From assembly GCA_958295845.1 (NCBI GenBank), contig OY282376.1, forward strand, positions 2,741,022 through 2,805,021: a DNA stretch of 64,000 nt, read 5' to 3'. Origin of the DNA: Caldilineaceae bacterium (GTDB lineage Bacteria; Chloroflexota; Anaerolineae; Caldilineales; Caldilineaceae). The notes beneath the pieces were generated by a model. It did not search any database. It saw only the letters and a program-made list of their open reading frames with translations, and was not told the origin of the DNA. The position numbers and the translations under genes were made by a program. Shown here in pieces: positions 7,847 through 50,949 of the stretch. Each line of letters starts with the position of its first letter. Within the stretch, counting starts at the first letter, position 1.

Positions 7847-10033
7847 TTATTTCTTGTCAGCGTCCCTAACCGCCACATCTGCCAAGGAAAACTCAGGCTC
7901 CCACACACCCACCTGAACGGTCGGCACCAGATTCTCGACATTGTATACAATTAGCCTGAGATTGTAGTTTCCTGAAGCGATGTCCGGCGGGAGATTGAAC
8001 TGAAACAAGGCATTGGTCCTATCACCTGGTGTCCAACCGCTTGTGGGTTGATGCAGCGGATTCCATAAGAGGGCGTCTTCTTGAAAGACTATCTCTCCTT
8101 CAGCGCCATAAAGTCGAATTGATATTGAGTAATCGATTTCCAAGTCCTGTAAGGTTTCCCAATTCAACGCTATCCAAAAAGGTCTTTCTCTTACAAGGTC
8201 AAGCGGGCTGGAATCTGAGTGCTCCTCCACGCCTTGACCAAGCGCAAACCCGGTGAGTGTAATGCCTCCGTCGTATTGGACAGACAGAGGAGCTAATCGG
8301 TCGAAGAATGTCCAGGGCCGTTCCAAAGAGACATTGGTATAGTTGTCGATCCTAAAGTCGTTGAAGTGTTGGGTATCGATGAACTGAGCGTATTTCCCCA
8401 TCAGAACTGAGACGCGTCCGGTGTCATTGCCGATCCAGCCAATGTGGACGTTGTTGAGTCGTACGACTTTCACTTTCGTCAGATTCTCCATGGCAGCAAG
8501 CGCGGATTCGATCTCTTCTGCCAGGAAATCAAGGTCTGTCGTTTCTCGTGGAAAGTAGAAAACGGGGGCGGGGCCCTTGTAGATATAATCAAGGCTGGGA
8601 TGGTCCAACGAATTAGGGACCAGATATATTTCTCCGTCTTCAGTTGGCAATGAATCGAGAGTTCGAGCAAAATCTGACCAAGGAACTTCGTAGGCGAACT
8701 GGACTCCCCGTTCAAATGCCCAGATTCCGAAAAAGTTGCGGAATGACGTTACGCCCTGAAGTAGTATCGTTGCAGTTAGGATGGCTCCCAGAGCTACAGC
8801 ACTTTCAGTGACTCTGTTCGGGAACATACGTCTCTTAGCAAACTGGAAGGCTTCCCAGAGGCCGAAGGCCAAGACCAGGTAGACTGCTGGTGTGGCTCCA
8901 AGCATTCTAAGCGTGTTTGGGGCGTAATCTACAGCAATGAACGCCGGCAGGAGCAGGAAAGCCCCCCAGAGGAGCAACAGTCTGCAGGCAGGATTCCGCC
9001 ATCGCCACAAAGAGACGCCAACGCCGATCCAGAAGAAAAATGCCTCCCAAGGATTGAGCATTGGCAGGGCGCCAAAATTGTGACGCCAACTTACATCGCC
9101 CTTGAATCCAAAGGCCGCCAGATGCCAGACCACGCTTTCCACGAAGGTTCCGAGCGGGTTTCCCTGATTGACTTCGGGCTGAAGGACTGAGAGGGAGTTA
9201 CTGCGCAGGAAAAAATGTTCAGGATTGAAGGCGAAAAAGATCATAATCGGTGCGGCGACGAGGAGAGCTGCACCCCCAAAATTAATGATCCGGCGACCTT
9301 CCGACCCCAGGTTTCTCGACTCTGCAGACCCAAGCGGGATCAGGAAGCTCAAGCCGAATGCCACGAAAAGAAATGGCGTGAAGCGCGCCGGGATATAAGT
9401 GTACTGGACCAGACCGGCGCACACACCGGCCAAGGTTATCGCCCACCATTTTCGCTCTCTCCAGCCCCACCAGAGCAAGGCAAGGCAAAGAGATAGCAAG
9501 AGGAGCAGGTGATTGGCACGGAAGACCGTGCGCCCCAGCACGGTCTGCCCTATGGAAACGGCCATAAGGCAGGAACCCACGCCCCCAATGAAGATTCCAC
9601 GCCAGGGAGTCTCGCGGCCTATTTCATCTCTGCCAAAAAGCAGGCGGCCTAACCAAAAAACTACGAAGACCGTACCGGCACTGGCTATGGCCGTGGGCAG
9701 GCGTAAAGCCAAGTCTGTTTGGCCCAAAAGGGCTATCGAGAGGGCAATCAGATAGACAACAAGCCCCTCGTGACCGCTAAACTCGGAAGGAAAGAAAACT
9801 GCATGTTCGCCGTCGAGAACGCGGAGAGCGTCGACCCCATTCAAGGCCTCGCTGACCTGGATGCCTGCCGGCAATTCGCCGAGTCTGTAGAGACGAAGCA
9901 TAGCAACAGCCAGCGTCAAGGCCACGATGATAGCGGATGAAATCAGACGGTAGCTGGGCAGTCGTGAACTTTGGGATTTGGCGCTGCGGGCAGACGGCAC
10001 TCCAGGAGGCACGCTTCCGGGCATTGTCCTCAC
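7847..10033 (-). CDS. GT-C family membrane glycosyltransferase (PMT/ArnT-like)
   Basis: A 728-residue integral membrane protein. After a charged, serine-rich N-terminus (1-28), residues 31-48 form the first helix, then an extracytoplasmic loop, then about ten further hydrophobic helices up to roughly residue 430. A soluble beta-rich domain fills 450-728. This is the layout of dolichyl-phosphate-mannose-protein mannosyltransferase / ArnT-like glycosyltransferases that use polyprenyl-phosphate sugars outside the membrane. The first loop normally carries a catalytic Asp before Glu. Here the segment reads GIQVSEALNGVDALRVL (58-73), with Glu62 kept but Ser at 61. The acceptor is unknown. An ATG start at 10033 is used. 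Confidence 0.82.
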   Translation of the reverse strand: MRTMPGSVPPGVPSARSAKSQSSRLPSYRLISSAIIVALTLAVAMLRLYRLGELPAGIQVSEALNGVDALRVLDGEHAVFFPSEFSGHEGLVVYLIALSIALLGQTDLALRLPTAIASAGTVFVVFWLGRLLFGRDEIGRETPWRGIFIGGVGSCLMAVSIGQTVLGRTVFRANHLLLLLSLCLALLWWGWRERKWWAITLAGVCAGLVQYTYIPARFTPFLFVAFGLSFLIPLGSAESRNLGSEGRRIINFGGAALLVAAPIMIFFAFNPEHFFLRSNSLSVLQPEVNQGNPLGTFVESVVWHLAAFGFKGDVSWRHNFGALPMLNPWEAFFFWIGVGVSLWRWRNPACRLLLLWGAFLLLPAFIAVDYAPNTLRMLGATPAVYLVLAFGLWEAFQFAKRRMFPNRVTESAVALGAILTATILLQGVTSFRNFFGIWAFERGVQFAYEVPWSDFARTLDSLPTEDGEIYLVPNSLDHPSLDYIYKGPAPVFYFPRETTDLDFLAEEIESALAAMENLTKVKVVRLNNVHIGWIGNDTGRVSVLMGKYAQFIDTQHFNDFRIDNYTNVSLERPWTFFDRLAPLSVQYDGGITLTGFALGQGVEEHSDSSPLDLVRERPFWIALNWETLQDLEIDYSISIRLYGAEGEIVFQEDALLWNPLHQPTSGWTPGDRTNALFQFNLPPDIASGNYNLRLIVYNVENLVPTVQVGVWEPEFSLADVAVRDADKK

Positions 10034-11778: not shown

Positions 11779-12636
11779 ATGAGCAGGATACTTATTACCG
11801 GGTCGAGTGGTTTTATTGGGAAAGCGCTGGCACGGGAATCCGCCAAAAACACTGATCACGAGCCCATTTGCCTATCTCGCAGTCCCACTGAAGTGCCTGG
11901 CGCGACAGAAATCCGGGGCGACTTTTCGGAACCCACGGAACTGCGAAAGCTGGATCCCTATGAAGGCATCGACGTTCTTGTTCATCTGGCCGCCGTGATT
12001 GGAGGGTGCCCCGAGGAGGACGGGCTGCGCGTCAATGTGGCCGGGACCCATCACTTGTTGCGCTATCTGATTGATAGAGGTTGCCGGAAGTTTGTCCTGG
12101 CCAGTTCCATCGCCGCGGTGGGAATGCAGTCGGTAAAGTTTCGCCCGTTGCAGCTTCCCATGCCGGACGAACACCCCTGCTTGGACCGTGACGGCTACGG
12201 TTTTTCCAAATATATGATGGAGGAGGTCACGCGATACCTGTCCAGGCAGAACGAAGATCTGGACTTTATCAATCTGCGTCTGGCCAGCATCGCCCCCAAT
12301 GACCGAGAACTGTCGCCAGCTGAACCCGGTCCTGTACCTCTATGGGGAATGGGAAGGATCTCAGTCATGTTTCTGAGCGATACGGTGCGCTGTCTGCTTG
12401 CTGCGGTCGAGGCACCTTATAAGCCCGGCGTACGAATCCTCAACGCGGTCGGGGGTCAATCCTGTACAGCGGTTCCCGTTCCTGAACTCATGCGCTCGTG
12501 GTACGGTAGCGAAGCCGACGAGTGGGACCTATCCCATTACGAGCAGCCCGGTCGTGAAAGGGATCCTGTGTACGATATATCGAGAATTCGGGAGGAGCTT
12601 GGTTTTGCGCCGCAGATGCCAATTCTGGGAGATTGA
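11779..12636 (+). CDS. NAD-dependent epimerase/dehydratase (extended SDR)
   Basis: A 285-residue extended short-chain dehydrogenase. The nucleotide-binding motif GSSGFIG is at residues 8-14, DVLVHLAAV near 72-80 matches the DxxxHLAA element, Ser of LASSIAAVG near 108-116 and YGFSK near 140-144 supply the catalytic Ser and YxxxK. Such enzymes epimerise or oxidise sugars or nucleotide sugars. AGGAAGGAAG lies 11 bases before the ATG. The dehydratase gene starts six bases after its stop, so they are probably cotranscribed. A uronate or aldose dehydrogenase role feeding the dehydratase is possible but not shown. Confidence 0.86.
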   Translation: MSRILITGSSGFIGKALARESAKNTDHEPICLSRSPTEVPGATEIRGDFSEPTELRKLDPYEGIDVLVHLAAVIGGCPEEDGLRVNVAGTHHLLRYLIDRGCRKFVLASSIAAVGMQSVKFRPLQLPMPDEHPCLDRDGYGFSKYMMEEVTRYLSRQNEDLDFINLRLASIAPNDRELSPAEPGPVPLWGMGRISVMFLSDTVRCLLAAVEAPYKPGVRILNAVGGQSCTAVPVPELMRSWYGSEADEWDLSHYEQPGRERDPVYDISRIREELGFAPQMPILGD

Positions 12637-30918: not shown

Positions 30919-31941
30919 CTATTGCCAGTTTATGTGCTTAAGCGGTTTGCCTTGCGGGTCCTTTTGGGCTTCGAGAAAGGCCGCCAGCTCTTCGTGGGCT
31001 GCGGTGGGGTGAAACTTGTTCCGATTTCGGTTGTAGTCGTCGTCTTCCATGAGGCCAATTACCTCATCTGTCATTTCCTTTATCTGGCGCTGTTGCTCTT
31101 CCAGGAAATCTTCGGACAGTTCTTCGGTGTGGACGTAATAGCCGGACCGGGAACTGCCTTTCGCAGGGGGCGGGAGCTGGTGGAGGGCCTGACCGGTCAG
31201 TGGGTCAAGCGGGGGTGGGGAATCGGGCATGGCTGCGGGGTCGCCCTTTATACTGGCCAGAGCCTTATCGGTGGCTTCACGAAACTCTTCCAGGAAAAGC
31301 AGCACTCCAGGGAGATCCCACTGTTTGTAGGCAAATTGCCTGACTTCGTCCTTCTTTGCATGGAAGAGCAGTTGCAGGAATTCGGGGCGGGTGTGGTAGC
31401 CGTAGCGGTGCCGCCCTTTGCCGTTGAGGACCACTTCGGGGGCCTCGTTGGGGTCGGACGGTTCTTCGAAGGCGGCGAAGCCCTGGTCGACGAGGGATTC
31501 GGCGCGGTACTGGTTCTGTTTGGCGACGATGGCGTCGGCGGCTTCGAGGATTTCGAGGTTGGCGTGTGCGCCGACGAACTCTGCTGCCGCGGCCTGTGTT
31601 TCTTCGGTGTGGATGCGTTCCATTTCCTCGTCGGCGCGGCGGTGGAGGTCGACAAGTGTTTTGGCGCTGCGGCAGATGGCGTTGCAGACGGCGGGGGAGA
31701 GTGTACCTTCGGCTACGCGGTTCATGCTGTCTTGGACGAGGTCGATGGCTTGTTTGAGCCTTTCGGGGATGCGTTTGTCGAGGCGGGCGGCGGTGGCGGA
31801 GTTTTTGCCGCCGCGGGAGCGCCATTCGCGGGTGAGGTCGGCGGGCGCATGGGCTATGCAGTAGCCGTCGAATTGGTCGAGGCCGTTTCCCTGGCAGGGG
31901 CTGCCGTCTTTTCTGATTCCTTTGCATGGTGTTTTGGACAT
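30919..31941 (-). CDS. Uncharacterised protein with N-terminal C-X9-C-X11-C-X2-H zinc-knuckle-like motif
   Basis: A 340-residue protein that I cannot place in a named family with certainty. Residues 6-31 hold Cys6, Cys16, Cys28 and His31 in the arrangement CKGIRKDGSPC...GYCIAH, similar to small zinc-binding motifs found at the start of several phage- and plasmid-borne proteins. The middle (50-200) is helical and rich in Glu, Ala and Arg, probably coiled coil, and the C-terminus is charged. ATG at 31941 is preferred, as GAGGTG lies nine bases upstream and the Cys motif follows at once. Repeat arrays flank its 5' side. A DNA-related role is a guess only. Confidence 0.65.
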   Translation of the reverse strand: MSKTPCKGIRKDGSPCQGNGLDQFDGYCIAHAPADLTREWRSRGGKNSATAARLDKRIPERLKQAIDLVQDSMNRVAEGTLSPAVCNAICRSAKTLVDLHRRADEEMERIHTEETQAAAAEFVGAHANLEILEAADAIVAKQNQYRAESLVDQGFAAFEEPSDPNEAPEVVLNGKGRHRYGYHTRPEFLQLLFHAKKDEVRQFAYKQWDLPGVLLFLEEFREATDKALASIKGDPAAMPDSPPPLDPLTGQALHQLPPPAKGSSRSGYYVHTEELSEDFLEEQQRQIKEMTDEVIGLMEDDDYNRNRNKFHPTAAHEELAAFLEAQKDPQGKPLKHINWQ

Positions 31942-32121
31942 GGTTGGTGGCACCTCATATGCGGGTTGTTCTGGTCGTGCGGCCGGGGGGCCGGCGATGG
32001 TGGTGGGTATAAAGTCAGCGCCGGGGTAGAACACCGGTGCTGAACAGGTATTATAACATGGAAATTGGGTGTTTTTTGGGCAATTTTATTGGATTTTGGT
32101 TTTGGGTTGGGAGGGAGGGGA

Positions 32122-32406
32122 GGGCAACGGCGACTTCAACATCTTTTAGCCACGGAGGGCCACGGAGGGGCACGGAGAACGGCAACTGCAACTGCAACTT
32201 CAACACCTTTTGGAACCACGGAGGGCCACGGAGGGGCACGGAGAACGGCAACTGCAACCGAAACTGCAACACCTTTCTTAGCCACTGAGGGGCACGGAGA
32301 ACGGCAACTGCAACTGCAAGTTCAACACCTTTGTCCACGGAGGGCCACGGAGGGCCACGGAGAACTGCAACTTCAAAACCTTAGTCCGGGGAGGGCCACG
32401 GAAGGA
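32122..32406 (+). repeat. Composite CACGGAG/CAACTTC repeat array 1
   Basis: About four imperfect units. Each has CCACGGAGGG, CCACGGAGGGG and CACGGAGAA in a row, then CGGCAACTGCAAC with a variable number of CAACTG/CAACTT hexamers, then CAACACCTTTT. One unit lacks one CACGGAG block. The same family recurs at 37.9, 45.2, 47.5 and 50.7 kb. Confidence 0.9.
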
Positions 32407-32436: not shown

Positions 32437-32530
32437 GCTGGGGAAGAATGAACACGGTGGCTAGCAAGGGCGGGGCGTTGCGGGGGCGCAGCCCCTGCAC
32501 AAGGGAGGGCCGAAGGCCCGGACGCCCAAA
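32437..32530 (+). repeat. Dispersed GC-rich hairpin repeat, copy 1
   Basis: A 94-base segment nearly identical to 49367-49460. It starts GCTGGGGAAGAATGAACACG and contains a GCGGGGGC-GCA-GCCCCTGC hairpin at 32480-32498 (one mismatch). Confidence 0.8.
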
Positions 32531-32630
32531 AGAGCGAGGAAGGGGTGGAGAGGATGGAAGGGAGAGAAGATGGCGCTTGTTTTGGCGAATTGGCTGCAGA
32601 TTGACCGGTTTAGCGAATCGGGTGCCGATG

Positions 32631-32639
32631 TGCTAATAT
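32631..32639 (+). promoter_or_regulatory. Candidate extended -10 promoter for the 32712 gene
   Basis: TGCTAATAT matches the extended -10 form TGnTATAAT at all but two positions, 73 bases before the start codon. No good -35 lies at the right distance. Confidence 0.35.
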
Positions 32640-32711
32640 TTCGCTTGTGGACCCTCGGTGGGCATACCCCATTACAAGGTTAGATTGAACTGAAGAAAAG
32701 GAGAATGCAAG

Positions 32712-34067
32712 ATGAAGGACCAAGTTTCGAACAGTGTATCGCGACGTGGATTTCTGCGTCTATCGGCTCTCGGTGTTGGGGCATCGGCGCTTGCGGCGTG
32801 TATGCCGGTTGCCGGTCCTGCCGGCGGCGACTCCGGCGGAGACGCTGGCATGGCTGAGCCGACGGCGGTGTCGTTCCTGACGCAGGGTGGAAGCGAGACT
32901 TCTTTTCTGCGCTATGAGCCGCTGATCGAGGATTTCCAGGCGGCTAACACCGGGATTACGATTGATCCGATTTGGGAACCGGGCGGCGCGATTGAGATTC
33001 AGACTAAGCTGCTGACGCTGATCGCGGCGGGCGATGCACCGGACTCTTACTGGGCGCACAGTTATACGAACTCGGGGCAGGCGGTGCGGAACATCCAGCT
33101 GGATGTCAATCCTTTCCTCGATGCCGACGACGACATCAGCGGGGATGACTTCCTGCTGGCGGCGTTGAAGGATTTCCAGTATGAGGGCAGGCAGATTGGA
33201 TTCCCGCGCGAGACGACGAGTACGGTGATTATCTACAACGCCGAGCTTTTCGACGCGGCTGGCGCGGCGCGGCCGGCGGACGGCTGGACGTGGGGCGACT
33301 TTGTCGAGGCGGCGGCGGCGATGACCCAGGGTGAAGGCACTGACCGTGTCTTCGGAACGGCGGACTGGCACCGGAATCGCAACACGTGGATAAAGATGTG
33401 GCAGAAGGGCGGCGACGTGCTGAGCGAGGACCGCACGAAGTTCACGATGAACCAGGAGCCGGGTCTGTCGCAGGTTGTCGAGATCCAGGACTGGCATCAG
33501 GAAGGGGGCATTCACGTGCCGGCCACTGTGACGGAGGCGGGCGGATTCAGCACGGGCGACCTGTTCACGACGGGGCGCATCGGCATGTTCCCGCAGTTCT
33601 CAGTGTTCTCGAATGTGATGAGCTCGGAGTTCGAGTGGGATATTGCGCACTTCCCGGTTGATGAGGGTGACACGCGCACCACGCGCGTTGCTTCAGCGGG
33701 ACACAGCCTCTACGGCGGTACTGAGAATCCGGACGAGGCGTGGCAGTGGATGAAGTTCCTCGGCGGTGAGAATGCGTTCCGCCACTGGGTGGAGGCTACA
33801 GGCTTGAACGTACCTTCGCTGAAGGTCGTGGCCGAGAGCCTGCTGGAGACGATGGCAGACGTACTGCCGGCCAGTGCACAGATCATGTTGGACGCGTTCG
33901 AGTACGGCAGGCCGGAGCCGGTCGCGGGCGACTGGATCGGCGTGCATCGTGAAGTGCAGCCGGCGCTGAACTCGATCTACGGTATCGAGAAGGCGGATGC
34001 ACAGGGAACGCTTGATGCTATTGCTGGCCGGGTGGAGGAGCTGGCGGTCTACGTACCGGGTGTTTAG
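32712..34067 (+). CDS. Extracellular solute-binding protein, family 1, with Tat lipoprotein signal
   Basis: A 451-residue carbohydrate-type ABC binding protein. The signal has the twin-arginine motif SRRGFLRL at 10-17 and a lipobox LAAC with Cys30, so export is probably by Tat followed by lipidation. The mature part shows family 1 hallmarks: PLIEDFQAANTGITIDPIWE near 68-87, LLTLIAAGDAPDSYW near 97, TTSTVIIYNAELFDAAGAAR near 170 and a late ENPDEAWQWMKFLGG near 335. AGGAGAATGCAAG precedes the ATG. The two permease genes follow after a hairpin and a short tandem repeat. Sugars or polyols are the usual ligands. Confidence 0.93.
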   Translation: MKDQVSNSVSRRGFLRLSALGVGASALAACMPVAGPAGGDSGGDAGMAEPTAVSFLTQGGSETSFLRYEPLIEDFQAANTGITIDPIWEPGGAIEIQTKLLTLIAAGDAPDSYWAHSYTNSGQAVRNIQLDVNPFLDADDDISGDDFLLAALKDFQYEGRQIGFPRETTSTVIIYNAELFDAAGAARPADGWTWGDFVEAAAAMTQGEGTDRVFGTADWHRNRNTWIKMWQKGGDVLSEDRTKFTMNQEPGLSQVVEIQDWHQEGGIHVPATVTEAGGFSTGDLFTTGRIGMFPQFSVFSNVMSSEFEWDIAHFPVDEGDTRTTRVASAGHSLYGGTENPDEAWQWMKFLGGENAFRHWVEATGLNVPSLKVVAESLLETMADVLPASAQIMLDAFEYGRPEPVAGDWIGVHREVQPALNSIYGIEKADAQGTLDAIAGRVEELAVYVPGV

Positions 34068-34082
34068 GCTTAGCTAAGCATG

Positions 34083-34113
34083 GTGCTGGCAGCTATCCAC
34101 CGGCTGCCAGCAC
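34083..34113 (+). terminator. Intercistronic hairpin after the family 1 binding-protein gene
   Basis: GTGCTGGCAGC and GCTGCCAGCAC form a perfect 11-bp stem with a 9-base loop, 15 bases past the stop codon. No U-tract, and the permease gene lies 53 bases further on, so partial termination or mRNA stabilisation is likely. Confidence 0.65.
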
Positions 34114-34117
34114 TATT

Positions 34118-34165
34118 GATCACTCATCCATCTGATCACTCATCCGTCTGATCACTCATCCATCT
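34118..34165 (+). repeat. Three tandem 16-bp repeats abutting the permease start codon
   Basis: GATCACTCATCCATCT is repeated three times (34118-34133, 34134-34149, 34150-34165; the middle copy has G for A). The permease ATG begins at 34167. The repeats occupy the place of the ribosome-binding site, and no Shine-Dalgarno sequence is visible. Confidence 0.85.
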
Positions 34166-34166
34166 G

Positions 34167-35096
34167 ATGGACAGCCCTGGAATCAACCCAGTCAAAGAGA
34201 AGAAGGGACGCGGCCTGCTCTGGTCTGAAACCAGGGACGGGTTCCTGTTTATCCTGCCGTGGATGTTCGGCTTTCTCATATTTACGGCCGGGCCGATGCT
34301 GGCGTCGCTCTATATTTCTTTGACGCGCTGGGAGATCGTGACGCCTTCGGTTTGGGTGGGCGGGGCGCAGTATGTGAAGTTGTTCAGTGACGACCGCTTC
34401 TGGCTAAGCTTATACAACACAAGTTACTACGTGTTTATCGGTGTGCCGCTGCATTTGTTGATGGCGCTGCTGGCGGCACTGGCGGTGAACATGAACTTGC
34501 GGGGCATTCACTACTTCCGCACGGCCTACTATGTGCCCTCGTTGACGCCGGTGGTGGCCAATTCGATCCTGTGGGTGTGGATATTCCACCCTTCGTGGGG
34601 GCTGGCCAACGCTTTTCTGGAGTGGATCGGTCTGGAGGGGCTGTACTGGCTACAGGACCCGCGGCTGGCGAAGCCGGCGTTGATCATTATGAGCTTCTGG
34701 TCGATTGGGGGCCAGATGGTGATTCTGCTGGCGGGGCTCAAGGGCATCCCGATACCGCTCTACGAGGCGGCGGCGATCGATGGGGCCAACTGGTGGGGCC
34801 GGTTTTGGCGTATCACCTTGCCGTTGTTGACACCGGCACTGTTTTTCAACCTGATCATTGCCATCATCGGCGCGTTTCAGATATTTACGCAGGCGTACAT
34901 CATGACCGAGGGCGGTCCGAACTATTCGACTCTCTTCTACCTACTCTATCTATTCCGCGCCGCATTCGAGAATTTCCGCATGGGCTACGCGTCGGCGATG
35001 GCCTGGGTCCTGTTTATCATTGTCCTCTTATTCACCATCATTCAGTTTATGCTGTCGGACCGGTGGGTCTTCTACGAAGGCGATCTGCGCCGCTAG
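34167..35096 (+). CDS. Carbohydrate ABC transporter permease (MalF/UgpA type)
   Basis: A 309-residue inner-membrane permease with six helices. The first spans about 30-55 (FLFILPWMFGFLIFTAGP). The cytoplasmic EAA loop is YEAAAIDGANWWGRFWRITL near 198-217. The MTEGGPNYSTLFYLLYLF segment before the last helices is typical of the MalF/UgpA family. It pairs with the following MalG-type gene. No ABC ATPase is encoded nearby; such importers often share an MsmX/UgpC-like ATPase encoded elsewhere. The ATG lacks a Shine-Dalgarno and directly follows three tandem repeats. Confidence 0.93.
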   Translation: MDSPGINPVKEKKGRGLLWSETRDGFLFILPWMFGFLIFTAGPMLASLYISLTRWEIVTPSVWVGGAQYVKLFSDDRFWLSLYNTSYYVFIGVPLHLLMALLAALAVNMNLRGIHYFRTAYYVPSLTPVVANSILWVWIFHPSWGLANAFLEWIGLEGLYWLQDPRLAKPALIIMSFWSIGGQMVILLAGLKGIPIPLYEAAAIDGANWWGRFWRITLPLLTPALFFNLIIAIIGAFQIFTQAYIMTEGGPNYSTLFYLLYLFRAAFENFRMGYASAMAWVLFIIVLLFTIIQFMLSDRWVFYEGDLRR

Positions 35097-35117
35097 GGCT
35101 GAATAGACTATATTCGA

Positions 35118-35972
35118 ATGACATCAATTAGCGGCAGATCTGCATTAGAGATCCTGTGGGCCGGAATCTGGTACGTGGTTCTGAGCATCTTCGCTGTGAC
35201 GCTGGCGTTACCCTTGGTCTGGCTGATTTCGACTTCGTTGAAGACGGGAGGGCAGACTTTTCTGATGCCTCCCAAATGGATTCCGGACCCGTTTGTGTGG
35301 AGCAACTACGCGGAGGCTTTCAAGGCTGTTGCCTTTCATGAATATTTTTGGAACACGATTCGCATCGTATTCTTTGCCACGACAGGCACGCTTTTGACGG
35401 CGTCGCTGGCGGCCTATGCGTTTGCCCGGCTACGGTTTCCGTTGCGCGGGCCGCTTTTTCTGCTGGTGCTGTCTACGATCATGCTGCCGTCGATCGTGAC
35501 GCTGATTCCAACCTTTATTGTCTTTCGCACCTTGGGTTGGATCGATACTTTTCTGCCTCTGATCGTGCCGCTGTGGTTTGGCGGGGGGGCGTTCAACATC
35601 TTTCTGTTCCGGCAGTTCTTTATGACGATTCCGCTTGAATTGGACGAGGCGGCCCGCATTGACGGCGCCAGCAATTTTCGGATTTATTGGACCGTGATTC
35701 TGCCTCTTTCCAAGCCGGTACTGGCTACGATCGCGGTCTTTGCCTTCATCCATAATTGGAATGATTTCTTTGAGCCCCTGATCTATCTGCAGAGCCCTGA
35801 GAACTGGACGATGGCGATTGGCTTGCGGGGTTTTCGGGGCCTTTACTCTACCGAGTGGAACCAGATGATGGCGGCGTCGACGGCGATGATTCTGCCGCTG
35901 TTAATTCTGTTTTTCTTTGCTCAACGCTACTTTGTGAGTGGCATACAGATGAGCGGACTGGCGGGAAGATGA
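35118..35972 (+). CDS. Carbohydrate ABC transporter permease (MalG/UgpE type)
   Basis: A 284-residue inner-membrane permease with six helices. The EAA loop reads ELDEAARIDGASNFRIYWTV near 173-192, followed by ILPLSKPVLATIAVFAF. The C-terminal QRYFVSGIQMSGLAGR closing segment is typical of MalG/UgpE proteins, where it contacts the ATPase. It starts 21 bases after the MalF-type gene, and its last four bases (ATGA) contain the start codon of the amidohydrolase gene, so transport and catabolism are translationally coupled. Confidence 0.94.
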   Translation: MTSISGRSALEILWAGIWYVVLSIFAVTLALPLVWLISTSLKTGGQTFLMPPKWIPDPFVWSNYAEAFKAVAFHEYFWNTIRIVFFATTGTLLTASLAAYAFARLRFPLRGPLFLLVLSTIMLPSIVTLIPTFIVFRTLGWIDTFLPLIVPLWFGGGAFNIFLFRQFFMTIPLELDEAARIDGASNFRIYWTVILPLSKPVLATIAVFAFIHNWNDFFEPLIYLQSPENWTMAIGLRGFRGLYSTEWNQMMAASTAMILPLLILFFFAQRYFVSGIQMSGLAGR

Positions 35973-37042
35973 CAACACATAATGGGAACCTGGTGGTCGA
36001 CACGGACATTCATCCGGTCGTGAACGCTGAAAGCGTGCAGGCGCGTCTGCCAGAGCCCTGGCGTACTCGATATGCTGGGGGGAATCGCGGCCCGGGCAAT
36101 TTGGGCTGGTGGAATCCGATGGGCGTGGAGAGGGCGGACGTGCGGCTGGAGAACGGGCAGACGATCCAGAGCGACCCGGGGCTGTTGGAAGAGCACTTCC
36201 TGGACGTGTACGGGATTGATTACGGCGTTCTGCTTCCGGGCGGCATTCTGCATACGGCGCAATCGCCAGAGCCTGACTATGCGGCGGCGGTGATCAGCGC
36301 GGTCAATGACGTCTATGTGGATGAGTGGCTGGCGCAGAGCCCGCGCTTACTTTCATCTTTGGGGGTCTATCCGCATTTGCCGGAGATGGCGGTGGCGGAA
36401 ATACACCGGCTGGGCGGGCATCCGCAGTTTGTGCAGGTGCAGCTGCCGAGTGCGGCGCGCATTCCATGGGGCCAGCGGATTTTTCATCCGATTTACGAGG
36501 CGGCCAGCGAGTACGGGTTGGCGATTGCGATTCATCCCGGTTCGGAGGGGGTGGGGCTGTCGGGTCCTCCGAATGCGGCTGGCTATCCTACGAGCTATTT
36601 CGAGTGGCATACGACTCTGGTGAACAGCTACATTGCCCATGTGACGAGTATGCTGGCGGAGGGTGTGTTCACGAAGTTTCCAAACCTAAAGTTCGTGCTG
36701 GTGGAAGGGGGAATTTCGTGGCTGCCGCCGATACTGTGGCGCCTGGACAAGAATTGGAAGGCGTTGCACTCGACTATTCCGTGGTTGAAGGAACTTCCGA
36801 GCGAAGTCGCGGCAAAACACATCCGCCTGACAACGCAACCGCTGGAGGAGCCGCCGAACACAGAGCATTTCCACGCGATGCTGGAGATGTTTCCGGCTGA
36901 GCAGATGCTGATGTTTTCAAGTGATTTTCCTCATTGGGATGGCGATGCGCCTGATTTTGCGGTGCGGCAGTTCCCTGAGCATATGCGGGCGCGGATCATG
37001 GGCCAGACGGCGGTCGAACTGTACGGATTGGAAGCTGGATAG
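35969..37042 (+). CDS. Amidohydrolase family protein (ACMSD-like)
   Basis: A 357-residue metal-dependent TIM-barrel hydrolase or decarboxylase of the amidohydrolase 2 (ACMSD-like) family. VDTDIHPVV at 10-18 gives the first metal ligands (DxH), AIAIHPGSEG near 187 the barrel His, and LMFSSDFPHWDGD near 316 the final Asp. Start is the ATG overlapping the permease stop; a longer in-frame start lies inside the permease gene. Members hydrolyse or decarboxylate aromatic and ring-cleavage acids. With a crotonase-like enzyme next door and an importer upstream, the locus may take up and degrade a cyclic carboxylate or glycoside; this is inference. Confidence 0.88.
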   Translation: MTTHNGNLVVDTDIHPVVNAESVQARLPEPWRTRYAGGNRGPGNLGWWNPMGVERADVRLENGQTIQSDPGLLEEHFLDVYGIDYGVLLPGGILHTAQSPEPDYAAAVISAVNDVYVDEWLAQSPRLLSSLGVYPHLPEMAVAEIHRLGGHPQFVQVQLPSAARIPWGQRIFHPIYEAASEYGLAIAIHPGSEGVGLSGPPNAAGYPTSYFEWHTTLVNSYIAHVTSMLAEGVFTKFPNLKFVLVEGGISWLPPILWRLDKNWKALHSTIPWLKELPSEVAAKHIRLTTQPLEEPPNTEHFHAMLEMFPAEQMLMFSSDFPHWDGDAPDFAVRQFPEHMRARIMGQTAVELYGLEAG

Positions 37043-37050
37043 GAACAGCC

Positions 37051-37854
37051 TTGCATACGACGATCGGGGCGCTGGCAGCGCGCGCGGAGCATACCCTTCT
37101 GCGAGTGGAAGGCCGGGTCCTGCACGTCATCCTCAACCGTCCCCAGGTACTCAACGCCCTCCATCCCCCAGCCCATTTTGAACTGGCAGAGATATTCGAC
37201 GCTTTTGCGGTAGACGGCGATCTTTGGATCGCTGTCGTACGGGGCGCGGGCGGGCGCAGTTTCTGCGCGGGCACGGATCTGAAGGCGTTGGCCGCGGGAG
37301 GGCGGGACGAGTACCCGCCGAGCGGGTTCGCAGGGCTGACCAGGCGCTTCGACCTGGAAAAGCCGGTGGTGGCGGCGGTGAACGGACTTGCGCTCGGGGG
37401 CGGGCTGGAGATCGCACTGGCCTGTGATCTTATCGTGGCGGCAGAGCATGCCCGGTTCGGGTTTCCGGAGCCGCGGGTGGGGCTGGCGGCGATGGGTGGG
37501 GGCGTGCACCGGCTGGTGCGGCAGCTGCCTGACAAGGTGGCGATGGGACTGCTGTTGACGGGAAGGCAGTTCAGCGCGCAGGAGGGCCTGGCGTACGGGC
37601 TTGTGAATGAGGTTGTGCCGGGTGAGCGCCTGGATCTGGCGGTTGAGGGTTGGGTTGAGGATATGTTGGCGTGCGCGCCGCTGGCTTTGCGGGCGACGAA
37701 GCAGGTGGCACGGCGGAATCTTGATCATGCTGCTTTGGCTGATGCGATTGGGGTGGATTATCCGGCTGTGGGGAGGATGCTGGCGAGTGAGGATGCGGTG
37801 GAGGGGCCGCGGGCTTTTGCTGAGAAGCGGGCGCCGCGATGGCGGGGTCGGTGA
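37051..37854 (+). CDS. Enoyl-CoA hydratase/isomerase family protein (crotonase)
   Basis: A 267-residue crotonase-fold enzyme acting on acyl-CoA thioesters. The oxyanion-hole segments are RSFCAGTDLKAL near 70-81 and NGLALGGGLEIALACDL near 111-127, and the two catalytic Glu positions are filled (GGGLE and FPEPRVG). TTG start at 37051 preceded by AGGAACA. It follows the amidohydrolase by eight bases. The stop codon is directly joined to a composite repeat array: the TGA overlaps the unit's (G)GAAGGGCAAC, so the present C-terminus, rich in Arg (KRAPRWRGR), may have been trimmed or set by the repeat. Confidence 0.9.
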   Translation: MHTTIGALAARAEHTLLRVEGRVLHVILNRPQVLNALHPPAHFELAEIFDAFAVDGDLWIAVVRGAGGRSFCAGTDLKALAAGGRDEYPPSGFAGLTRRFDLEKPVVAAVNGLALGGGLEIALACDLIVAAEHARFGFPEPRVGLAAMGGGVHRLVRQLPDKVAMGLLLTGRQFSAQEGLAYGLVNEVVPGERLDLAVEGWVEDMLACAPLALRATKQVARRNLDHAALADAIGVDYPAVGRMLASEDAVEGPRAFAEKRAPRWRGR

Positions 37855-38166
37855 AGGGCAACGGCGACTTCAACACCTTTTTTAGCCACGGAGGGCCACG
37901 AAGGGGCACGGAGAAGGGCAACTTCAACACCTTTTTTAGCCACGGAGGGCCACAGAGGGGCACGGTAAAGGGCAACTTCAACTTCAACACTTTTTTTAGC
38001 CACGGAGGGCCACGGAGGGGCACGGAGAAGGGCAACTTCAACTTCAACGTCTTTTGTCCACGGAGGGCCACGGAGGGCCACGGAGAACGGCAACTTCAAC
38101 TTCAACGTCTTTTGTCCACGAAGGACCACGAAGGACCACGAAGTACGTCTTTTGTCCACAGAAGGC
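37853..38166 (+). repeat. Composite CACGGAG/CAACTTC repeat array 2
   Basis: Five to six units of the family described at 32.1 kb, beginning inside the stop codon of the crotonase gene. Here the CAACTTC part varies from one to two hexamers and the spacer is TTTTTTAGC or TTTTGT. The final unit has decayed to CCACGAAGGA three times. Confidence 0.9.
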
Positions 38167-40773: not shown

Positions 40774-40957
40774 GGATTGGCGCGATCGCCATCAGACGGA
40801 CTGAAATTACAGGTAGACGGCGTTTCGAATATGCTTCTCTCGGGGATTTCGCCCGGACATCGGGACGCCGAATTCGAATTCGAAAGTGAAGACGGCGGTT
40901 GTTGATGTTGCTGCTGATTGGGATGTGAACTTCAAGTCAAGCACAGTGAAGGCGAAA

Positions 40958-41911
40958 ATGTCAAGCCTTGTGAGACCGGAAGGGCCAACATTTTATTTTA
41001 TCGGTGTTACGACGGGTCAATCTTCATCGCAGCGTGTTTTTCCGCTGTGGATGGAGGCCTTGGGCCGCGAGGAGGTGACGCTGGCAGGCATCGACATGGA
41101 GATTCATGCGGCGCCTGCGCGTTATCGAGAGGTGGTATCGGCAATCAAGGCGGAGCCAAAGGCACTGGGCGCGCTAGTCACAACGCATAAGATCGACCTG
41201 CTGGCGGCGGCGGGGGACCTGTTTGACGACTTAGGGCCCTTTGCGAGAGCGACGCAGGAGGTGTCGAGCATCGCCAAAGACGGGGGCAAGCTAGTCGGGC
41301 GGGCGACGGACCCGGTTGCGGGCGGGTTGAGCATGGATGCCATTCTTGGCGAGGAATACTTTGGCCGGACAGGCGGGGAAGTGCTGATGCTGGGTGCAGG
41401 CGGGTCTGCGGTGGCATTAGTTCTGCATCTGATGCAGAAGACAGAAGTGACGGACCGTCCAGAGCGCATTGTGGTGGTCAACCGGTCGGCTCCACGGCTG
41501 GCGCGACTGAGGGAGATGGTGGAGCGGACCGGCGTCGAAGGGGGCCGGGAGATTCAGTTTGCGTTCATTCAGAACAATGTGGCGGCGCGCAACGACGAGA
41601 TTATGGCGGAGCTGCCGCCGGGCAGTGTTGTGATCAATGCGACGGGGATGGGGAAGGACACGCCTGGGTCACCATTGACAGACAGTGCTCTTTTTCCGCG
41701 GGATGGTGTTGCCTGGGAGCTGAATTATCGCGGTGAATTGGATTTCATGCGGCAGGCGGAGAGGCAGAAGGGGGACCGCAGTCTTACTGTTGCTGATGGA
41801 TGGGCGTACTTTGTGCATGGTTGGTCGCAGGTGATTTCGCATGTGCTGCATGTGGAGATTGATGGGGGGATGTTTGAGCGGCTGTCGGGGTTGGCGGCGG
41901 GGGTGAGGTGA
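40958..41911 (+). CDS. Shikimate dehydrogenase (AroE)-like oxidoreductase
   Basis: A 317-residue AroE-fold NAD(P)-dependent oxidoreductase. Lys78 in ALVTTHK corresponds to the catalytic Lys and Asp118 in GRATDPVAGG to the catalytic Asp. MLGAGGSAVAL near 144-154 binds the cofactor, and VVINATGMGKDTPGSPL near 230-246 matches the AroE substrate-side loop. The usual Asn of the GxNTD motif is Ala, and the N-terminus lacks the SxS shikimate carboxylate motif, so the substrate is probably quinate-like or unrelated. ATG 40958 has GAAGG upstream; an earlier in-frame start at 40886 is less likely. Confidence 0.8.
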   Translation: MSSLVRPEGPTFYFIGVTTGQSSSQRVFPLWMEALGREEVTLAGIDMEIHAAPARYREVVSAIKAEPKALGALVTTHKIDLLAAAGDLFDDLGPFARATQEVSSIAKDGGKLVGRATDPVAGGLSMDAILGEEYFGRTGGEVLMLGAGGSAVALVLHLMQKTEVTDRPERIVVVNRSAPRLARLREMVERTGVEGGREIQFAFIQNNVAARNDEIMAELPPGSVVINATGMGKDTPGSPLTDSALFPRDGVAWELNYRGELDFMRQAERQKGDRSLTVADGWAYFVHGWSQVISHVLHVEIDGGMFERLSGLAAGVR

Positions 41912-42660: not shown

Positions 42661-43322
42661 GCAGTCACGAGGGGTGGCCGTACGTGTGGTGAGGGGAACT
42701 GGGCACCCACGAGGGGTGGCCGTACGTGTGGTGGAAGCTGAGAGTTGGGGGGTGGCGGGCACCCACAAGGGGTGCCCCTACGGGTGGTGGAAGCTGAGAG
42801 TCGGGGGGAGGCGGGCACCCACAAGGGGTGCCCCTACGGGTGGTGGAAGCTGAGAGTTGGGGGGTGGCGGGCACCCACAAGGGGTGCCCCTACGGGTGGT
42901 GAGGCTGAGAGTTGGGGGGTGGCGGGCACCCACAAGGGGTGCCCCTACGGGTGGGGAGGCTGAGAGTTGGGGGGTGGCGGGCACCCACAAGGGGTGCCCC
43001 TACGGGTGGGGAGGCTGAGAGTTGGGGGGTGGCGGGCACCCTACGGGTGGTGAGGCTGAGAGTTGGGGGGTGGTGGGCACCCACAAGGGGTGCCCCTACG
43101 GGTGGTGGAAGCTGAGAGTTGGGGGGTGGCGGGCACCCACAAGGGGTGCCCCTACGGGTGGGGAGGCTGAGAGTTGGGGGGAGGCGGGCACCCACAAGGG
43201 GTGCCCCTACGGGTGGGGAGGCTGAGAGTTGGGGGGAGGCGGGCACCCACAAGGGGTGCCCCTACGGGTGGGGAGGCTGAGAGTTGGGGGGTGGTGGGCA
43301 CCCACAAGGGGTGCCCCTACGG
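42661..43322 (-). repeat. Tandem array of REP-like palindromes (about 12 units of 55-56 bp)
   Basis: Each unit contains, on the minus strand, GTAG followed by GGGCACCC-CTTGT-GGGTGCCC, a perfect 8-bp stem with 5-base loop, then a CCRCC-type spacer ending in CTCTCAGC. Palindromes begin on the plus strand at 42701, 42757, 42813, 42869, 42924, 42979, 43034, 43075, 43131, 43186, 43241 and 43296. The unit at 43034 is shortened by about 14 bases and loses one arm. The unit at 42701 and one before it (42661) are degenerate, reading GGCCGTACG. All units have the same orientation. Confidence 0.93.
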
Positions 43323-43333
43323 GTTGCGTTTCT

Positions 43334-45091
43334 TTATCTGCGCCATGGGAAGGCGAAGGTGGGTGTATTTGCGTAGCGGTCGGTTGCGATTTCGACGGTG
43401 GCGCCGCAGCCGGGGGCGATGTTGACTTCGAATGTGTCGTTCTCGATATCGATGCTTTGCCCGTTGATGGTGGCTGATTTGAACTGGTGCTCGGCGTATG
43501 CGCCGCCCTGGACGGTGACGCGGCGGGAGGATACCTGGCTGGTGTTGATGAGGGTTACGGTGACGGCGTCGGCGGTCATTTTTTCTACGAGCGCGGCCAC
43601 GTCAGCGGGGACACCGGCTCTTCGCTGATCCGGGTCGAAGTAGCGCAGGCGGCAGTGGAGGGGGCCGCCGGTGCGGCCTGTGGGCAGGCCTCCGAGCATG
43701 AGCCTGGTGAGGTTTTCGGTGACGGCCGGGTTGATGTGGTTCATGTCGTCGGAGAGGCGGGTGTCGGGGGTGGCAGTGTCGGCGCGCATGACTTCGAGGT
43801 TGTGTCTGAGCTTGTCGAAGTCGGACAGGAGCGCCTGCTCGGGGAAATCGGGGTTGTCGCCTTCGAGATATTGGATCCAGGGGTCGCCGGCGAGGAGGTC
43901 GCGGTGGTCGGGGTTCATTGACCAGAAGTAGACTTCGAGCGCGCCGGACGTGAAGGGCTCGGGCTTGAAGGCGTACCAGTCTTCCTCGCCAAAGTAGTCA
44001 CCATAGGCATCGGGATACATCAGTTGGCCATCGATTTCACGGGCGTTGCTATTGACGTGGTCGATTACCCCGCGCCAGGAATTGGCGTAGCGTTGGTCGC
44101 CGGTCAGTATCATGGCGTTGCCGAAGCCGTGGATGGCGCGGGTGTGGAAGTAGGTGCGGTGGGCGAGCTCGCCGGTCTGGGGAACGGTGACGGTGAAGCC
44201 CCAGCCGTAGACGCCGCCGTACCAGCGGCCGTCACATTCGCTGCCGACGACGTTGTCGAGGCCGACGTTTGTGGGGATGATGCCGCCGTTCTGCTCTGTA
44301 CGCTCGACCCACTGATCTACATAGTCGATGACCCACTGCCGGTACTTGTCTTCGTGACCGAGCATAAAGGCGTTGAGCGGCAGGATGGTGGCGGCCATGT
44401 TGATGGGGTGGTCGCCGACGACGTCGTTGTAGTCTTTGAAGTGGGCCACCATCTCGTCGTAGTTGCGCTCGCCGTGACCGAGGCGGAATCTTCCTTCGAT
44501 TTCGATGGGGTCGCCGGCCCAGTCGAGGCCGGTGGCTTTGCGGAGGAGGGGGCCACGGCTGCCGTTGAACATGCTGCGGATCAGCTTGTGTTCGGGGTCG
44601 TAGTTTTTGGCAATCGGGTCTTCGTCCATGTAGAAACCGGCGAAGCGGCGGCAGCGGCGTTGGAAGTCGGGGTCATCGGGGTCGGAGAGGCCTTGAAGGA
44701 AGAAGGATGAGAAGCCTTCGGCGTTGTGGAACCAGTCGAACATGACGGGGAATTCTTTGAAGTACATGCCGTCGCGGGCCATGGGCACTTCGACTGTTTT
44801 GGCTTCTGTGTATTGCAGGAGGTGGCCTTCCCAGCCGAGTTTGTAGAGGTCGAGGATGTCGTCGTCGGCGCCGAGGGCGTGGAGCATGGTCCAGTTGAGG
44901 ATGTTTTCGGCGGCGTCGTCGGGGCCGTCGTCGCCGCCCCAGCGGGGGACACAGAGGAGGTAGCCGCGGTCGTCGAAGTAGTGGTCGAAGAAGGCGCGGC
45001 AGCCGTCGGCAAGCTCGCGGAGGAGTCTTCTTTGGAGGAGGGACCAGTGGGGCGGGGGCATTGGTGTGTTGATGGTCAGGTTGGTGGTCAT
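43334..45091 (-). CDS. Uncharacterised large protein, probably alpha/alpha-barrel glycosidase-like
   Basis: A 585-residue protein without a signal peptide. The first 400 residues are rich in aromatic and acidic helices (WTMLHALGADDDILDLYKLG, FDWFHNAEGFSSFFLQGLSD, INMAATILPLNAFMLGHEDK) in the manner of (alpha/alpha)6-toroid glycoside hydrolases or lyases. The last 110 residues form a beta-rich domain, ending TFAFPWRR. I recognise no named family and cannot point to catalytic residues. ATG at 45091 with AAGGA upstream. It stands between the REP array and composite repeat array 3. Confidence 0.7.
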   Translation of the reverse strand: MTTNLTINTPMPPPHWSLLQRRLLRELADGCRAFFDHYFDDRGYLLCVPRWGGDDGPDDAAENILNWTMLHALGADDDILDLYKLGWEGHLLQYTEAKTVEVPMARDGMYFKEFPVMFDWFHNAEGFSSFFLQGLSDPDDPDFQRRCRRFAGFYMDEDPIAKNYDPEHKLIRSMFNGSRGPLLRKATGLDWAGDPIEIEGRFRLGHGERNYDEMVAHFKDYNDVVGDHPINMAATILPLNAFMLGHEDKYRQWVIDYVDQWVERTEQNGGIIPTNVGLDNVVGSECDGRWYGGVYGWGFTVTVPQTGELAHRTYFHTRAIHGFGNAMILTGDQRYANSWRGVIDHVNSNAREIDGQLMYPDAYGDYFGEEDWYAFKPEPFTSGALEVYFWSMNPDHRDLLAGDPWIQYLEGDNPDFPEQALLSDFDKLRHNLEVMRADTATPDTRLSDDMNHINPAVTENLTRLMLGGLPTGRTGGPLHCRLRYFDPDQRRAGVPADVAALVEKMTADAVTVTLINTSQVSSRRVTVQGGAYAEHQFKSATINGQSIDIENDTFEVNIAPGCGATVEIATDRYANTPTFAFPWRR

Positions 45092-45179
45092 TTGGGCGGT
45101 CCTTCTGACTGGGATTTTAGGGTTGGTTTGGTTGGAATCTGTTGGAGATTGATCTGCCTAAAGTAAGGGTGAACACCTC

Positions 45180-45455
45180 TTTTTAGCCACGGAGGGCCAC
45201 GGAGGGGCACGGAGAACGGCAACTGCAACTTCAAGACCTTTTGACCACGGAGGGCCACGGAGGGGCACGGAGAACGGCAACGGCAACTTCAACACCTTTT
45301 GACCACGGAGGGCCACGGAGGGGCACGGAGAACGGCAAGGGCAACGGCAACTTCAACACCTTTTGTCCACGGAGGGCCACGGAGGGGCACGGAGAACGGC
45401 AAGGGCAACGGCAACTTCAACACCTTCTGTTCGCGGTGGGCCACGGAGGGGCACT
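45180..45455 (+). repeat. Composite CACGGAG/CAACTTC repeat array 3
   Basis: Four well-conserved units and a decayed fifth, spacing about 60 bases, in the gap between two minus-strand genes. Units differ mainly in the number and type of hexamers after GAACGGCAA (GGGCAACGGCAACTTC versus CTGCAACTTC). Confidence 0.9.
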
Positions 45456-47474: not shown

Positions 47475-47704
47475 CAGGGGCCACGGAGAAGGGCAACTTC
47501 AACATCTTTTTTGCCACGGAGGGCCACGGAGGGGCACGGAGAACGGCAACTTCAACACCTTTTTAACCACGGAGGGACGCGGAGGTGGACGGAGGACGGC
47601 AACTTCAACACCCTTTTAGCCACGGAGGGCCACAGAGAGGCACGGAGAACGGCAACTTCAACACCTCTCTGACCATGGAGGGCCACTTAGAGGCACGGAG
47701 AACA
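47475..47704 (+). repeat. Composite CACGGAG/CAACTTC repeat array 4
   Basis: Five units, more diverged than in other arrays (for example GGACGCGGAGGTGGACGGAGGACGG), each with only one GGCAACTTCAACACC block. It lies in the gap between the divergent ThuA and GxxExxY genes, which otherwise shows no recognisable gene between 47372 and 47900. Confidence 0.88.
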
Positions 47705-50720: not shown

Positions 50721-50949
50721 AACACCTTTTTTAGCCACGGAGGGCCACGGAGGGGCACGGAGAACGGCAACTTCAACTTCAACACCTTTTGTCCACGGAG
50801 GGCCACGGAGGGGCGCGGAGAACGGCAACTTCAACTTCAACACCTTTTGTCCACGGAGGGCCACGGAGGGCCACGGAGAACGGCAACTTCAACAGCTTTT
50901 GTCCACGGAGGGGCACTGAGGGGCACGGAGAAGGGCAACTTCGACACCT
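50721..50949 (+). repeat. Composite CACGGAG/CAACTTC repeat array 5
   Basis: Four units between convergent genes (enolase-superfamily stop at 50686, MDR stop at 51019). Some units carry CCACGGAGGGCCACGGAGGGGC, others CCACGGAGGGCCACGGAGGGCC, and one or two CAACTTC hexamers. Confidence 0.9.

Follow-up and report, generated by a model that had tools for sequence, protein, structure and literature searches.

A three-unit tandem repeat at a permease start codon of a Caldilineaceae genome is probably a spacer expansion beside a possibly malE-malF-like hairpin

What does a short tandem repeat that ends one base before a start codon do for the gene that follows it, and is the repeat the part of its intergenic gap that matters? 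The question is raised by a 64-kb stretch of DNA (64,000 nucleotides, hereafter the window) that belongs to a 5.4 Mb single-contig genome (G000), whose closest named relatives are MAGs of the Caldilineaceae, a family of the Chloroflexota. At 32712-35972 the window carries an ABC importer for sugar uptake, made up of an extracellular solute-binding protein (SBP) gene (32712..34067, plus strand; Pfam SBP_bac_8 / SBP_bac_1) with a good Shine-Dalgarno (SD) sequence (predicted pairing with the 16S tail of -8.0 kcal/mol) and, on the same strand, two permease genes (34167..35096 and 35118..35972), both open reading frames with Pfam BPD_transp_1 and both without an SD. The gap between SBP and first permease is 99 nt long in G000 and contains a hairpin, three 16-mers and one G, followed by the ATG. 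The 16-mers lie head to tail on the plus strand at 34118-34165, with unit 1 (34118..34133) and unit 3 (34150..34165) reading GATCACTCATCCATCT and unit 2 (34134..34149) reading GATCACTCATCCGTCT, which has CCGTCT where the other two have CCATCT, the single mismatch being at 34146. Like a tuning repeat, the array is thus built of near-identical units in head-to-tail order, three of them with one mismatch. Its last base is 1 nt 5' of the permease ATG (34167-34169), the base between them being the G at 34166. Tandem Repeats Finder (TRF) reports 3.2 copies with a score of 97, the excess over 3 arising because GAT, from GATG, keeps to the 16-bp period. The original prediction of three 16-bp tandem repeats running to one base before the ATG is hence confirmed, with the addition of the unit 2 mismatch that it did not mention.

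The unit itself is rare. No further copy was found in the window at up to 3 mismatches, where 0.5 matches were expected by chance, and at up to 2 mismatches the sole other match in the whole genome is one isolated site with 2 mismatches, so the 16-bp unit is not a dispersed element. A literature search of an open library, by title, gave nothing describing the array.

The absence of an SD ahead of the permease, also noted in the original prediction, was borne out by sequence motif and by pairing energy: positions -18 to -4 contain no GGAG, GAGG or AGGA, and these bases are predicted to pair with the 16S tail at +0.6 kcal/mol (+0.4 kcal/mol for the second permease), while the 16S tail of the host is normal and carries CCTCC. 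An in-frame TGA at 34149-34151, 18 nt 5' of the permease ATG, means that no ATG, GTG or TTG start is possible further upstream. The original prediction went on to propose that the repeats replace the ribosome-binding site, and this part is not supported, because none of the 10 orthologues with a short SBP-permease gap has an SD motif, whether or not a repeat is present; a repeat-replaced SD was therefore rejected. We sampled 384 kb of G000 (the window together with sixteen 20-kb stretches) with open reading frames and starts called mechanically, so that the SD fractions are an estimate, and found GGAG, GAGG or AGGA at -18 to -4 in 86 of 209 first-ATG starts, compared with 11, 25, 17, 19 and 31 of 209-210 in five controls at shifted positions. 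The motif is missing at the remaining 123 of the 209 starts, and an SD-less permease is therefore usual in G000. The proportion of SD-bearing genes ranges from 9% to 97% depending on the species, according to figures cited in a passage of PMC5397173, and the permease shares its SD-less start codon with the non-SD bacterial genes treated there, making it an ordinary case in that respect. An in-frame TAG within the permeases of several genus members seemed odd at first sight; in the one case that was read (L114, in G000) it is the end of the protein.

How the array came about is best seen from its relatives, for which we used a genus set of 17 genomes, G000 included. The short arrangement of SBP, hairpin and permease occurs in ten of these (G000 and nine relatives). 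Outside the ten are G004, G008 and G013, which have longer gaps of 202, 256 and 309 nt that were unmatched by DNA search, G002 and G009, where over 2 kb separate the SBP end from the permease, and G010 and G011, which have no close orthologue (best E values of 5.1e-100 and 4.4e-89, as against ≤3.4e-182 in the others). The closest relative examined, G015, with a permease 98% identical to that of G000, has one copy only, GATCACTCATCCATTT, at the corresponding site, where it abuts GATG and is accompanied by a similar hairpin. Its gap measures 67 nt against 99 nt in G000, and the 32-nt difference is exactly two units. The eight further orthologues have gaps of 60-66 nt, where no repeat occurs and a single, diverged spacer stands in for the unit. 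A scan of all 17 genomes for the unit (≤2 mismatches) gave 22 places, and only the three copies in the window are in tandem. Short matching ends flank the unit, GAT on both sides of the single unit in G015 and TGAT in G000. A spacer from a recent duplication, one of two origins offered in the original prediction, is thus supported by the one unit in G015 together with the exact gap difference. Constant copy number among relatives, which had been named as speaking against a tuning role, was not what we found, since the number differs between related genomes as it would for a tuning repeat (three in G000, one in G015, unrepeated in eight). It should be noted that only two genomes share the unit and that these are different species, and a between-species difference in copy number shows divergence, not function.

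We observed the following about the surroundings of the importer. The operon block at 32472-37043 has 92% DNA identity to G015, compared with 71-89% for matched stretches elsewhere in the window. At four-fold sites the identity to G015 is 81-84% in three open reading frames of the block, 47% for the gene that comes next and 61-71% for four opposite-strand genes immediately upstream of the block; a figure of 97% for the open reading frame at 30922-32043 is probably a wrong-strand effect. This pattern suggests that the block is a locally exchanged or mosaic segment, and two other stretches, 40886-41911 and 43334-45091, resemble it in their identity pattern (83-84%). Larger arrays are also present in the window: five, built of CCACGGAGG plus CAACTT or AACTGC/AACGGC units, lie at 32124-32376, 37849-38134, 45179-45454, 47476-47703 and 50721-50942, of which two flank the operon block, one per side, and a 55-bp unit (GGGCACCCACAAGGGGTGCCCCTACGGGTGG...) makes up two adjacent runs at 42701-43324, with some 11 copies in all.

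Judged from the alignment of the orthologues, the element that is conserved in the gap is the hairpin adjoining the array. It lies between SBP and permease at 34080..34116 on the plus strand, is defined by folding and covariation, and has a 15 bp stem with a 12 bp core (34082-34093 / 34103-34114). Across 10 sequences, 99.2% of the 120 pair cells of the core are paired, and 4 of its 12 pairs show compensatory changes on both sides, a number reached by 16 of 500 shuffles. None of 500 shuffles attained the covariation score, which falls off steeply once the partner strand is slid out of register. Further pair types are no more numerous than in shuffles, 494 of 500 of which attain the observed number. 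Two properties of a malE-malF-like element are thereby found, a stable stem-loop between SBP and permease and its conservation through compensatory changes. Covariance models of Rfam gave no match up to E = 1 in 33900-34400, by which a known Rfam element was ruled out as the identity of the hairpin.

Hairpins at this position are not particular to this operon. Of 91 permease matches in G000 we took the best 30, of which two have no long upstream open reading frame, two have a 0-nt gap and one has a 403-nt gap without a control, leaving 25 gaps that were tested against shuffles preserving base composition only. In each of the 24 gaps whose upstream gene is a Pfam-confirmed SBP (L005, the others within L112-L140), the hairpin surpasses every one of 20 shuffles. 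The lone tested gap that fails, L127, follows a sulfatase and not an SBP, and 5 of 20 shuffles are as good. Among ordinary co-directional gaps (74 in total, 70 tested) a strong hairpin is present in 11, two of which, the ones covered by the SBP check, are SBP gaps among the 24. The difference between 24/24 and 11/70 has a Fisher p of ~3e-14, or ~5e-15 without the two shared gaps. The hairpin stretches mostly differ in sequence, with only 2 of 276 pairs sharing a same-strand word of at least 10 bases and a few sharing shorter words such as CTATCCACT.

Could the number of units nevertheless set the strength of permease translation? On this reading the array is a slippage-prone element in which gain or loss of a unit changes the distance from hairpin to start and thereby permease translation, and the difference in copy number between species and the ending of the array at the start codon are both in its favor. 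We folded variants with 0-5 units within the window's own flanks. The hairpin lies 18 nt from the start with one unit and 50 nt with three, and the unpaired fraction averaged over the region from -15 to +15 rises for 1-5 units (0.34, 0.25, 0.41, 0.46 and 0.53), as the reading would have it; the native values are 0.19 in G015 and 0.41 in G000. The predicted energy for opening the same region, however, is 11.0, 13.3, 12.3, 13.1 and 12.7 kcal/mol for 1-5 units and shows no trend, and the ATG is nearly fully paired throughout (0.00-0.05 unpaired). The native G000 value of 12.3 is the highest of the ten genomes, the nine relatives having 9.8-11.5. Without any unit, opening is predicted to cost 22.7 kcal/mol, so that a single unit of spacer is enough, in the model, to get clear of the hairpin; some spacer would be needed, and further units would act without a trend. 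The distance from hairpin to start varies from 3 to 156 nt over the 24 comparable gaps of G000, with a median of 38, and the 50 nt found here is unremarkable for this genome. Unit 2 already carries a substitution, and none of the 17 genus genomes holds other tandem copies of the unit at ≤2 mismatches. The tuning element for permease translation put forward in the original prediction thus finds little support in opening energies without a trend and in the range of distances elsewhere, even with the rising unpaired fraction, and we consider it improbable. We regard as quite improbable the related possibility that the array is a variable-length spacer whose 16-nt slippage steps would, in such a model, alter the permease/SBP ratio within a population.

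Other functions would give the array or the hairpin a role in transcription. If the hairpin were an intrinsic terminator or attenuator, with the array moving the permease away from it, a strong intergenic stem in 10 orthologues would be expected, as is seen, but the 8 bases that follow it, TGATCACT, contain 3 T and no T-run, at most 4 T occur in the next 8 bases after the stem over the 24 listed gaps of G000, and the hairpin is absent from the list produced by a terminator scan; an intrinsic terminator was rejected on these grounds as the hairpin's identity, and the wider reading is very improbable. A leaderless permease message, with transcription beginning at the ATG and the array outside the mRNA, would fit an ATG that has no SD and is almost flush with the array. 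The gene, however, stands within an operon-like row of same-strand genes, the scan shows no -10/-35 candidate at the site, and leaderless genes occur in 4 of 12 Chloroflexi genomes and make up 4.7% of genes on average, at least in the section of PMC3160421 cited here, all of which leaves this a highly improbable account. That each unit, taken with the preceding T, begins with the palindrome TGATCA could point to a direct-repeat operator in which the units are binding sites of a regulator and the permeases are separately controlled. Yet outside G015 the sequence at the unit's position shows little conservation, a consensus scan found no sigma-70-type candidate between hairpin and ATG, and the sole other match to the unit in the genome is isolated, and we hold an operator to be extremely improbable.

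Expansion of a spacer is easier to accept if it has happened elsewhere in the genome. TRF found 54 arrays with a score of at least 50 in the 384 kb of G000, 50 of them with a period of at least 8 and four with a period of 7, compared with 1, 2 and 2 arrays of period ≥8 in three shuffles within 1-kb blocks, which keep base composition only and for which the period-7 arrays were left out of the count. The array at the permease is itself far from chance. Non-coding positions hold 29 of the 54 arrays, 22 of these have a period of at most 30, and of these 22, 8 are no more than 60 bp 5' of a candidate start, taken as any of the first six start codons in a called open reading frame. Five other arrays were traced in the genus. 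One, at 6857-6915 in L160 (20 bp x 3), is 40-41 nt, or about two units, longer than in all 6 aligned relatives. The other four gave no clean whole-unit difference: the L147 array (16 bp x 2.1) is longer by 15 nt than in G010 and by 12 nt than in four others, in a comparison that left out L230 with its span of 1130 nt; the L153 array (7929-7980) aligns poorly, with differences of 35-43 nt; the L150 array (12347-12389) has no continuous match across it in relatives; and the L154 array (1051-1117) likewise gave nothing that could be compared. The last of these lies within 900-1270, part of a dispersed family that has 60 or more matches in G000 and is matched in all 17 genus members. Lineage-specific short spacer expansions look, from these alignments, like a habit of G000, the L160 array being the one clean second case.

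Based on these data, we propose that the array is a lineage-specific expansion, from one unit to three, of an ordinary spacer between hairpin and start codon, arising likely by slippage and likely neutral for translation, and that the hairpin is the working part of the gap and acts in a malE-malF-like manner; we consider this account probable as a whole. Replication slippage between the short end matches (GAT in G015, TGAT in G000) would have duplicated the single unit, and slippage is the most likely cause of the expansion, as neutrality is most likely for the array, whose function is most likely none beyond spacing. The direction, from one to three and not from three to one, is suggested by the similar gap lengths of the eight more distant orthologues. 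We further propose that the hairpin protects the SBP message at its 3' end, which would leave SBP in excess over the permeases, and that it may act in mRNA decay like the malE-malF hairpin. That the SBP gene has a strong SD and the two permeases have none would fit such an excess of binding protein, as far as anatomy allows us to infer it. A repeat that catches the eye next to a start codon can thus turn out to be the ordinary expansion of a spacer, and the more useful object is the adjoining hairpin.

Variable-number or phase-variable repeats in 5' regions are short tandem units upstream of a start codon whose copy number varies between genomes. The array resembles them in that it consists of short tandem units directly 5' of the start codon and differs in copy number between genomes, but it departs from them in that only one of the ten genomes with the short gap has more than one unit and in that no clear effect on expression is predicted. 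The hairpin resembles that of the malEFG operon, which encodes the maltose ABC importer of Escherichia coli and in which an intercistronic hairpin between malE and malF stabilises the malE mRNA; four further ABC systems likewise have their SBP part stabilised, as described in the portion of PMC5927463 drawn on here. As in malE-malF, the hairpin in the window stands between an SBP gene and the first permease gene, with the SBP upstream; unlike there, the host is one of the Chloroflexota, and the likeness is in anatomy only, no relation in sequence being claimed. If the hairpins of G000 do protect SBP messages, a control like that of malE-malF would operate in two dozen operons or more, and in a bacterium only distantly related to E. 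coli.
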